From: Acidimicrobiales bacterium
GTDB taxonomy: Bacteria > Actinomycetota > Acidimicrobiia > Acidimicrobiales > SZUA-35
Length of the DNA: 64,000 nucleotides
Direction: 5' to 3'
NCBI GenBank assembly: GCA_013003535.1
Contig: JABDIY010000049.1
Coordinates: forward strand, 62,001-126,000
Positions within the stretch are counted from its first letter, which is position 1; each line of letters opens with the position of its first letter. Of the stretch, positions 59,963-63,473 are shown piece after piece. The translations under genes and the position numbers were made by a program. Below the pieces are notes generated by a model. It saw only the letters and a list, made by a program, of their open reading frames with translations. It did not search any database and was not told the DNA's origin.

Positions 59963-60946
59963 TTACTGTTGGTTCTGACCGTCGAAGATCTTGCTAACCG
60001 AAGCGTCTTCGAACACCGCACGAATTGCGTCAGCGATCAAGGGTGCCACCGAGAGCACCTCGAGCTTGTCGAATTGCTTTTCGGGGGGAAGCGGCAGTGT
60101 GTTTGTGACGATGACCTTGTCGAAGACACTGTTTTTCAGTCGGTCTATGGCAGGCCCGCTGAACACCGCGTGGGTCGCGGCCGCAACGACCGATGCCGCC
60201 CCACGCTCCATGAGGAGTTCCGCACCGGTGCAGATCGTTCCGGCCGTGTCGATCATGTCGTCGATGATCACGCAATGCCGACCCTCGACCTCACCAACGA
60301 TGTCTTTGGCCTCAACCTGGTTCTGCTTGCCCTTCAGTCGGCGTTTGTGAACGATCGCAAGATCGGCCGACAGCTTCTGCGCATACCGCTCGGCTACCTT
60401 CACCCGACCCGCATCTGGCGAGACCACCACGAGATCCTCGCCGTATTGCTCCAAGTGCCGGACCAGAACGGGCATAGCGGTGAGGTGGTCTACTGGACCG
60501 TTGAAGAAACCCTGGATCTGACCGGAGTGCAGGTCGACCGACACGAGCCGAGACGCCCCGGCCGCTTTGAAGAGATCTGCGACGAGTCGAGCCGTGATCG
60601 GTTCCCGTCCTTCGCTCTTGCGATCCTGACGGGCGTACCCATAGAACGGGAGCACCGCAGTGATGCGCTTTGCCGATGCACGCCGCGCCGCATCCACCAT
60701 GATCAAATGCTCCATGACTGCGTCGTTCAGAGAGCGACCCTCGATCGACCCATGACTCTGAATGATGAACACGTCGGATCCACGGATGGACTCGGAAAAC
60801 CGAACGTGCGTCTCGCCGTTCGCGAACTGGCTGGAGTGGGCTTCGGTGATCTCGGCGTTCAGACACTCAGCCACTTCATGGGAGAGTTCTTCGTTGTGCC
60901 GCCCGCTGAACAGGTGAAGCTTCTTCTTGGTTAGGGCTTCAATCAT
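59963..60946 (-). CDS. prs: Ribose-phosphate pyrophosphokinase
   Basis: Makes PRPP from ribose-5-phosphate and ATP. The 327-residue product from ATG 60946 (MIEALTKKKLHLFSGRHNEEL, GGGGGA about 10 nt upstream) has the expected LPFYGYARQDRK, DLHSGQIQGFF, VVVSPDAGRVK, KRRLKGKQNQVEAKDIVG and the PRPP loop VIIDDMIDTAGTIC. The GlmU-position gene lies about 57 nt upstream on the same strand, the usual glmU-prs order. Confidence 0.97.
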   Translation of the reverse strand: MIEALTKKKLHLFSGRHNEELSHEVAECLNAEITEAHSSQFANGETHVRFSESIRGSDVFIIQSHGSIEGRSLNDAVMEHLIMVDAARRASAKRITAVLPFYGYARQDRKSEGREPITARLVADLFKAAGASRLVSVDLHSGQIQGFFNGPVDHLTAMPVLVRHLEQYGEDLVVVSPDAGRVKVAERYAQKLSADLAIVHKRRLKGKQNQVEAKDIVGEVEGRHCVIIDDMIDTAGTICTGAELLMERGAASVVAAATHAVFSGPAIDRLKNSVFDKVIVTNTLPLPPEKQFDKLEVLSVAPLIADAIRAVFEDASVSKIFDGQNQQ

Positions 60947-61003
60947 TATCGTGTGTCCCCCACGCAAATGTGCTGTTGTCGTTGTGCTTCGCCCCGGTGG
61001 CGA

Positions 61004-62086
61004 TCAAGCCCCTGAAGCATAGAAGGGTCCGGTCACGGTTCTGTCGGAAACTTGGGCGCCCGGACTGAGTGCGGCGAACGGGCCCACAATGCATTGTTCG
61101 CCGATGGCGGCGAGCTGGCCGGTTGAGGACCGCACCACACTTCGGGGCCCAACAGTGCAGTGGTCGAGATGGGTGTCTGGCCCAATATCGCATCCCTCGC
61201 CTATGGCGGTGCTGCCGCTCAGTGAAACGCCGGGAAATAGGGTGACGTCCGTGGAAAGCGTGACAGTGGCGTCGACGATTGTTCGAGACGGATCGATCAT
61301 CGTGACACCGCGCGCCATCCAGAAATGATTGATTCGGTTACGAAGGACGGCTTCCGCTGCAGCCAACTGGATCCTGTTGTCAACCTCTTCGAATAACTCC
61401 GCAAGTACGGCGACGGTAGCCACCGCATGACCGCTGTCGGCAAGCACGCCCGGCACGTCACGGAGGAGATGCCGGCCGGTAGCTGGGTCGGGCATGGTCC
61501 GCCGGATCGCCGGCGCCAGGAGACCACGCCGCACCACCATCACCCCCACCGGGGAATCCACAGGATTTCCGGCTTCACCATCGTCATTGGACACAGTGAC
61601 GCCAATGGCATTGCCGTGGCGGTCTCGCAAGACGTACGGCGTTCCAGATCGCCGCGGCTGGCGAGTGCAGGCGATAGTGCAGGCAGAGCCGGTCTGACGA
61701 TGAACCGTGAGAACCTCTTGAAGTACGTCGCCCGTCAGCAGCGGCATATCGGCCGGAAGAATCAAGACATCGCCTTCGTCGTCGAACTCGTCAAACCCGC
61801 TCATGCCAATCAATGCCGCTTCGGCGTTTCCGCGAGAACGAGGCTGTTCCAAGAATCGGGTAGTTAGGTCAGACGGCGGCGTATCCATGATCCTCTTGGC
61901 AATCCAGTCACCGTCTGGTCCAGTAACCACAACCGCTTCAGACACGCCGGAGTCACTTACTGCGTTCAGCACCCACGACAGCATTGGCCTACCACAGAGG
62001 ACATGAATAGGTTTCGGCCGCTCCGACACCAACGGTGCACCGGAAGCGGTTGCAATCACGAGCGCTGACACATCACCCTTCGCCAT
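61004..62086 (-). CDS. GlmU-like protein, truncated and with altered active sites
   Basis: A 360-residue protein (E. coli GlmU is 456) in the usual GlmU position upstream of prs. The N-terminal nucleotidyltransferase-like domain runs to about 230, followed by a short left-handed beta-helix (VTLSTDVTLFPGVSLSGSTAIGEGCDIGPDTHLDHCTVGP). At the uridylyltransferase site the usual GxGTRMxS loop reads ATASGAPLVSE and the usual GTGHA reads RGNAEA. The C-terminus stops where GlmU has GNFVEMKKA, so the acetyltransferase catalytic His/Lys/Tyr part is missing. The PKPIHVLCGRPML, ILPADMPLL and EEVDNRIQL segments show common descent. Start ATG 62086 (GGAGG just upstream). Function may have changed. Confidence 0.75.
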   Translation of the reverse strand: MAKGDVSALVIATASGAPLVSERPKPIHVLCGRPMLSWVLNAVSDSGVSEAVVVTGPDGDWIAKRIMDTPPSDLTTRFLEQPRSRGNAEAALIGMSGFDEFDDEGDVLILPADMPLLTGDVLQEVLTVHRQTGSACTIACTRQPRRSGTPYVLRDRHGNAIGVTVSNDDGEAGNPVDSPVGVMVVRRGLLAPAIRRTMPDPATGRHLLRDVPGVLADSGHAVATVAVLAELFEEVDNRIQLAAAEAVLRNRINHFWMARGVTMIDPSRTIVDATVTLSTDVTLFPGVSLSGSTAIGEGCDIGPDTHLDHCTVGPRSVVRSSTGQLAAIGEQCIVGPFAALSPGAQVSDRTVTGPFYASGA

Positions 62087-62738: not shown

Positions 62739-63473
62739 GTGCCCCCCGTGTTTCTCACCGCTCCCGCCAAGCTCACACTCGGGCTCCGTATCACCGACGT
62801 TCTGAAGAACGGGCACCACCTGATCGATGCCGAAATGGTGACCGTAGATCTTCACGACACACTGTGGCTCGACCCGACCGGCGACGGGCTCACCGTGGTG
62901 GGCGGCAGCCAGGACGTACCGGTCGGCCCCGACAATCTGGTGGCCCGGGCGTTACGGCTAGCAGGTCGGACTGCTGCCGTTCGCGTGACCAAGCGGATAC
63001 CTAGCCAAGCCGGGCTGGGTGGCGGGTCGGCCGACGCCGGCGCAATTCTCCGCTGGGCCGGCTTCAAGGATCTTGTAGCAGCCGCCGAAATCGGCGCCGA
63101 CGTTGCGTTCTGCGCGGTAGGTGGGAGAGCACACGTGAGCGGGATCGGCGAGATCGTTGCGCCTCTCGAATTTCAACCGATGGACCTGACCCTCCTGACC
63201 CCGCCCGTGGGATGTCCCACCGCTCTGGTGTATGCCCGCTGGGATCAAATGGGTGGGCCTGTTGGCGACAGCGGTAACGATCTAGAACCGGCTGCGGTGC
63301 AGGCCGTCCCCGCGCTGCTTCCGTTTCGTGAGGCGTTGGGAAACGCCACAGGTCAGACGCCCCGACTCGCCGGTAGCGGTAGTACGTGGTTCGTTTCGGG
63401 CCACCACCCCGGCCAGAACCACGTCCTCGTTCGCACGGTTCAGGCCGGATGGTCAGCAACCGACCCCCGGTAG
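62739..63473 (+). CDS. ispE: 4-diphosphocytidyl-2-C-methyl-D-erythritol kinase
   Basis: GHMP kinase of the non-mevalonate isoprenoid pathway, phosphorylating CDP-ME. It begins with APAKLTLGLRITDVLKNGHHLIDAEMVTVDL, has the GHMP ATP motif PSQAGLGGGSADAGA (about 89-103), GADVAFCAVGGRAHVSGIGE and the C-terminal LAGSGSTWFV. At 244 residues it is shorter than usual (about 280-310), with the helical region between the ATP motif and GADV reduced. GTG start at 62739. Confidence 0.92.
   Translation: MPPVFLTAPAKLTLGLRITDVLKNGHHLIDAEMVTVDLHDTLWLDPTGDGLTVVGGSQDVPVGPDNLVARALRLAGRTAAVRVTKRIPSQAGLGGGSADAGAILRWAGFKDLVAAAEIGADVAFCAVGGRAHVSGIGEIVAPLEFQPMDLTLLTPPVGCPTALVYARWDQMGGPVGDSGNDLEPAAVQAVPALLPFREALGNATGQTPRLAGSGSTWFVSGHHPGQNHVLVRTVQAGWSATDPR

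Follow-up and report, generated by a model that had tools for sequence, protein, structure and literature searches.

A short GlmU-position protein in Acidimicrobiales and the altered uridylyltransferase site of one family

The bifunctional enzyme GlmU (TIGR01173), represented by the proteins of Mycobacterium tuberculosis (PDB codes 3spt and 2qkx) and Escherichia coli, is a drug target. In M. tuberculosis, each of its two activities is essential in its own right (PMC4619583). Artificial N-terminal fragments, which comprise the nucleotidyltransferase domain and the first coils of the β-helix, exist for the E. coli protein (PDB codes 1fxj and 1fwy) and for the M. tuberculosis protein (GlmU-N, residues 1 to 352), and the latter is active as a uridyltransferase and has no acetyltransferase activity (PMC4619583). 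Loss of catalysis is also on record for a sugar-nucleotidyltransferase relative: GMPPA, a paralogue of the GDP-mannose pyrophosphorylase GMPPB, reportedly has no catalytic activity and acts on a partner through ligand binding (PMC11228364).

Here, we describe a protein, P0001, that occupies the GlmU position in an Acidimicrobiales genome (the source genome; the window is the whole 64,000-nucleotide stretch of it that was analyzed). P0001 shares homology, fold, and the glmU-prs neighborhood with bifunctional GlmU but lacks the acetyltransferase half and scores far below every GlmU cut-off. Its extent is that of the artificial fragments; unlike them, however, the short form is natural and found throughout the order, and in the family of the source genome the uridylyltransferase site is decayed as well. 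The likeness to GMPPA is an analogy only, between relatives of sugar nucleotidyltransferases in which catalysis is reported, or for P0001 appears, to be lost. P0001 is also distantly similar to the archaeal sugar-1-phosphate nucleotidylyltransferase/acetyltransferase (TIGR03992), which is a different subfamily (53.5 bits against a cut-off of 292.1).

The short GlmU and its spread in Acidimicrobiales

GlmU models match P0001 across positions 2 to 344 of 452, and among solved structures its closest relative is M. tuberculosis GlmU, with residues 3 to 347 aligned. The protein has both the nucleotidyltransferase fold followed by a β-helix and the glmU-prs neighborhood that characterize GlmU; it misses the curated thresholds of TIGR01173 (190 bits; cut-off, 366.85) and PRK14352 (225 bits; cut-off, 611). 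The β-helix stops short of the acetyltransferase residues H363, Y366, N377, N386, and K392 (active-site positions are numbered by E. coli GlmU throughout), the translation ends in ...VGPFAALSPGAQVSDRTVTGPFYASGA, and the alignment contains no acetyltransferase-site residue beyond position ∼345. P0001 is, then, not a working bifunctional GlmU, and its coordinates, translation, and homology agree with a sequence-only reading of this DNA, which had described a GlmU-position protein of about 360 residues without an acetyltransferase half. A gap of about 36 to 40 b separates its stop codon from the prs reading frame; because that frame starts ∼36 b past the stop, an acetyltransferase half cannot be hidden in another frame. 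Elsewhere in the window, an IspE-like kinase (positions 62739 to 63470, plus strand) has just 244 amino acids, compared with the usual ∼300.

Features of the short GlmU locus and of related loci discussed in the text
Feature	Location	Strand	Remarks
P0001, short GlmU-position CDS	61004..62086	minus	360 aa, ATG start, stop included; homologous to GlmU 2-344/452
prs (ribose-phosphate pyrophosphokinase)	59963..60967	minus	directly downstream of P0001
Shortened left-handed β-helix of P0001	61016..61303	minus	residues ∼262-357; Hexapep match, alignment, AlphaFold, Foldseek
Degenerate nucleotide loop ATASGAPL, residues 12-19	62030..62053	minus	replaces AAGxGTRM; R18 equivalent is P
Lys25, equivalent of E. 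coli K25	62012..62014	minus	kept in P0001 (alignment); lost in genus g5
RGNAEA, residues 85-90	61817..61834	minus	replaces LGTGHA (alignment)
Asp113, equivalent of Mg2+ ligand D105	61748..61750	minus	kept (alignment)
3pnn-type nucleotidyltransferase of source genome	G000 C101:4920-5729 (L273)		PDB 3pnn family
Giant GlmS-like protein, 1128 aa	G000 C175:86640-90023 (L185:4641-8024)	minus	adjoins glmM
g5 glmU-position open frame, G008 C31	L478:1669-2739		beside prs; loop, K25, D105 lost
g5 glmU-position open frame, G024 C152	L479:1222-2202		beside prs; loop, K25, D105 lost

A TIGR01173 profile search of the contigs found no second GlmU in the source genome, which is 95.8% complete. The other matches reach at most 54 bits and fall on other nucleotidyltransferases and sugar acetyltransferases, which by sequence resemble a mannose-1-phosphate guanylyltransferase-like protein, a glucose-1-phosphate cytidylyltransferase, GalU, a MocA-like protein, and two nucleotide-sugar acetyltransferases. 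The search was extended to 61 genomes, namely, the source genome (G000) and 60 relatives from 25 families of the order Acidimicrobiales; we refer to the family and genus of the source genome as f1 and g1 and to the genus of G008 and G024 as g5. In none of the 61 did the GlmU profile match into the acetyltransferase half, and acetyltransferase residues are absent from every aligned Acidimicrobiales row. The suggestion that another GlmU lies elsewhere is not supported by the search of the source genome or, for a form with that half, by that of its 60 relatives. The short GlmU occurs in 56 of the 61 genomes, mostly whole, as fragments in others, and much diverged in G008 and G024. The remaining five gave just distant nucleotidyltransferase matches, as a dedicated profile confirmed; four of these (G010, G013, G018, and G021) belong to f1, and the fifth (G046) is only 70% complete. 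At an E value of 1e-30, three further genomes of the order (G199, G263, and G294) had no GlmU match. A full GlmU, with a match to positions 447 to 450, is found in other orders of the class (e.g., G076, G104, G227, and G316).

Three of the genomes with the short form are nearly complete and assembled into one or two contigs (G038, G042, and G047), and the form is present in 80 database loci as well. One of these loci comes from Aquihabitans sp. G128, whose chromosome is complete, and 79 of the 80 have prs immediately downstream. Conservation of the short form in related genomes, a check that the sequence-only reading had proposed, was borne out. Nearly all database relatives of P0001 carry the names Acidimicrobiales, Acidimicrobiia, or unspecified Actinomycetota. 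A few metagenome-assembled genomes bear implausible labels (L101 and L121, Bifidobacterium breve; L127, Acidobacteria), carry an Acidimicrobiales-type glmU-prs, and are probably mislabelled.

The source assembly is fragmented (221 contigs), which might allow a frameshift to hide the acetyltransferase half, but there is no room for one before prs, and the same end recurs in the 56 genomes, one-contig assemblies included, and in the 80 database loci. An assembly or sequencing artifact is therefore vanishingly improbable; the frameshift alternative is refuted by the related genomes, and the recurrence excludes chance and assembly error, so that the short form is a natural one.

Outside f1, most aligned rows keep LAAGxG(T/S)RM, K25, Q76, GTG, D105, YG, E154, and N227; at N169, which is mostly kept, some rows have A, C, or another residue. 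L027, L028, L108, and L129 clearly depart from this pattern, and L138 and L142 do so to a smaller extent. Most other Acidimicrobiales rows, unlike P0001, therefore combine an intact uridylyltransferase site with the absence of the acetyltransferase half, and because the site outside f1 is nearly always intact, the short GlmU in its usual form is probably a uridylyltransferase with no second activity, comparable to the GlmU-N fragment of M. tuberculosis.

Decay of the uridylyltransferase site in family f1

In P0001, the LAAGKGTRM of E. coli GlmU reads IATASGAPL, GTG reads GNA, and E154, N169, and N227 are replaced by V, P, and D, respectively, while K25, Q76, G81, and D105 are kept. The altered motifs pointed out in the sequence-only reading (the ATASGAPL loop and RGNAEA) were confirmed by the alignment, which adds the loss of E154 and N169. 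Every f1 row with a readable N terminus has R18, E154, and N169 replaced, by residues that differ among genera, and N227 is usually replaced as well. Most f1 members keep K25, G81, and D105, and Q76 is nearly always kept. Genus g5, in which the frame beside prs still spans 327 to 357 residues, has lost the loop, K25, and D105, and in four f1 genomes that are at least 95% complete the dedicated profile found no homologue. G048 and L108, whose sites are partly decayed, are sister to f1 in the short-GlmU tree (support, 98/95), a position that depends on long branches and calls for caution; this placement suggests that decay proceeded from E154/N169 to R18, then to K25/D105, and finally to the gene itself. 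The truncation, which is order-wide, and the decay, which affects one clade and isolated cases, are two separate events.

These replacements suggest that P0001 has lost uridylyltransferase activity and is probably not a working uridylyltransferase either, although the retention of K25, Q76, G81, and D105 in most f1 members makes a residual or altered activity possible. A stronger version of that alternative, in which the f1 protein is still a UDP-GlcNAc pyrophosphorylase and other residues replace R18, E154, and N169 in a rearranged site, would also fit the ancestral place beside prs, the purifying selection within the genus, and the closest folds, which are those of M. tuberculosis GlmU. We consider it quite unlikely, since positions 18, 154, and 169 vary from genus to genus with no conserved replacement, g5 has lost K25 and D105 too, and the gene is missing from four near-complete f1 genomes.

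Stepwise decay that ends in loss from four genomes is also what a degenerating gene with no remaining function would show. Against this rather improbable reading, frames are full length and conserved in position in nearly all members, and a dN/dS of 0.09 to 0.18 for the short GlmU within g1 indicates purifying selection in that genus, albeit with synonymous substitutions close to saturation. An AlphaFold model of P0001 is GlmU-like (mean pLDDT, 75), and Foldseek ranked M. tuberculosis GlmU first with it. Loop residues 15 to 31 fall below 50 in the model, which is not independent evidence because the alignment is shallow. With catalytic residues lost and purifying selection persisting in the genus, P0001 is best read as a GlmU-derived pseudo-nucleotidyltransferase. 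The new role proposed in the sequence-only reading is thus plausible for f1, where the residues are lost in every readable member and selection persists in the genus, but for that family only. Because of this selection, and by analogy with GMPPA, the role is probably one of binding or regulation.

Candidates for uridylylation and acetylation

A listing of nucleotidyltransferases drew attention to one that keeps the full nucleotide loop and belongs to the family of PDB entry 3pnn, which is of the same broad fold class as P0001 but is encoded by a separate gene in the same genomes. The solved 3pnn structure is named only "conserved domain protein," and our literature search found nothing on 3pnn. 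At E values below 1e-100, 34 of the 37 f1 genomes have the 3pnn-type gene (the other three are 76 to 81% complete), as do G048, whose GlmU is decayed, and G294, for which the search returned no GlmU. None of the 29 genomes of the order with an intact short GlmU, 21 of them judged by residues and eight by score alone, has the gene at that level. Its distribution matches the decay. Seven genomes have distant relatives (E values of 1e-46 to 1e-58), five of them with an intact GlmU and two with a decayed or missing one; among decayed or missing-GlmU genomes, G044 and G263 have distant relatives only, and G199 has none. The association has a Fisher P value of 2e-14 uncollapsed and of 0.018 with clades collapsed (2/5 versus 0/29), where it is weak, and it may reflect a single ancestral event because f1 and G048 form one clade.

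A 3pnn homologue on a Hymenobacter plasmid is followed by a gene for a kinase of the aminoglycoside phosphotransferase family, an arrangement that a sugar-1-phosphate route might have; no comparable pathway hint appeared in the other annotated 3pnn regions inspected. In f1, the regions compared often place the gene near genes read as menaquinone genes, not sugar genes. The 3pnn-type protein is a candidate replacement for UDP-GlcNAc synthesis in f1, a takeover hypothesized from the phyletic pattern.

Alternatively, GlmR (YvcK) or a broad-specificity GalU- or ManC-like enzyme could make UDP-GlcNAc in f1, with the 3pnn-type gene unrelated to the loss. GlmR makes UDP-GlcNAc from GlcNAc-1-P and UTP, and its operon is said to be conserved in firmicutes and actinobacteria, but it is reported as an accessory uridyltransferase (PMC10128056). 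GalU-like and ManC-like enzymes are present in the source genome. A phylum-wide gene would not, however, explain loss of the GlmU site in one clade alone, and it is the 3pnn-type gene that tracks the loss; we regard this alternative as unlikely.

GlmM scored above its cut-off in 57 of the 61 genomes. The eukaryote-type UDP-sugar pyrophosphorylase (PF01704) is absent from the source genome and present in three of the 61. Among the hexapeptide, GNAT, and GlmS candidates examined, no convincing GlcN-phosphate acetyltransferase was found. A stand-alone GlmU-like acetyltransferase half was represented in the source genome and its relatives by just weak, sporadic hexapeptide matches. A query with an approximate yeast GNA1 sequence had no match in the source genome and weak GNAT matches elsewhere. 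One conserved GNAT (G000 C147, locus L372) was present in all 14 genomes of the order examined and was not among the GNATs inspected in two relatives with full GlmU; it is not specific, having close relatives on Streptomyces plasmids, and in the PDB it is matched best by general GNATs and only weakly by GNA1.

The sole GlmS-like protein with a full domain make-up found in the source genome is a giant one (1,128 compared with ∼609 amino acids). It carries an insertion in its N-terminal part and a conserved ∼310-residue extension at the C terminus, and in neither was a domain recognized. This giant form is common in the order, and about eight genomes have a canonical GlmS. It was set aside as the acetyltransferase: its extra parts contain no recognized domain, and there is no obvious link between the giant GlmS and the short GlmU, since the latter also occurs in families whose GlmS is normal. 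Separately, frames of ∼800 to 1,270 amino acids that match a sugar nucleotidyltransferase fused to a phosphohexomutase were seen in genomes of the order outside f1 (e.g., G047 C1:326357-328825) and were not listed for most f1 genomes.

Two further proposals of the sequence-only reading find support here. That acetylation is done differently is supported for the whole order, but the enzyme itself was not found; split enzymes are supported in part, in that the decay is tracked by a different nucleotidyltransferase.

A proposed two-loss history

We favor, with moderate confidence, a history of two losses. GlmU would have lost its C-terminal acetyltransferase half no later than the ancestor of Acidimicrobiales, leaving a monofunctional UDP-GlcNAc pyrophosphorylase whose β-helix is short and capped, after which a separate enzyme would have acetylated GlcN-phosphate. 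In the clade of the source genome, another nucleotidyltransferase, most likely the 3pnn-type protein, would then have taken over UDP-GlcNAc synthesis, and the uridylyltransferase site would have decayed stepwise, first at E154 and N169 and later at R18 and mostly N227, with one genus also losing K25 and D105 and some genomes the whole gene. P0001 would be a pseudo-nucleotidyltransferase that keeps the GlmU fold beside prs.

More tentatively, these parts may belong to an undescribed, order-wide route to UDP-GlcNAc, with separate acetylation (which may act on GlcN-6-P or be linked to the giant GlmS), uridylylation in f1 by the 3pnn-type protein, and a former GlmU as a regulatory pseudoenzyme; we see this as a possibility short of even. 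In the literature searched, mostly outside subscription journals, GlmU and Acidimicrobi- are mentioned together only twice, both times in passing, and no paper describes the short, decayed form.

An entire order of actinobacteria does without one of the GlmU activities, and one of its families apparently without either, with no obvious substitute; the residue losses suggest that f1 cells make the universal wall precursor UDP-GlcNAc with other enzymes. This poses a missing-enzyme problem for the GlcN-phosphate acetyltransferase and offers a testable candidate for the uridylylation step. It also provides a graded natural series in which an essential enzyme appears to decay into a pseudoenzyme.
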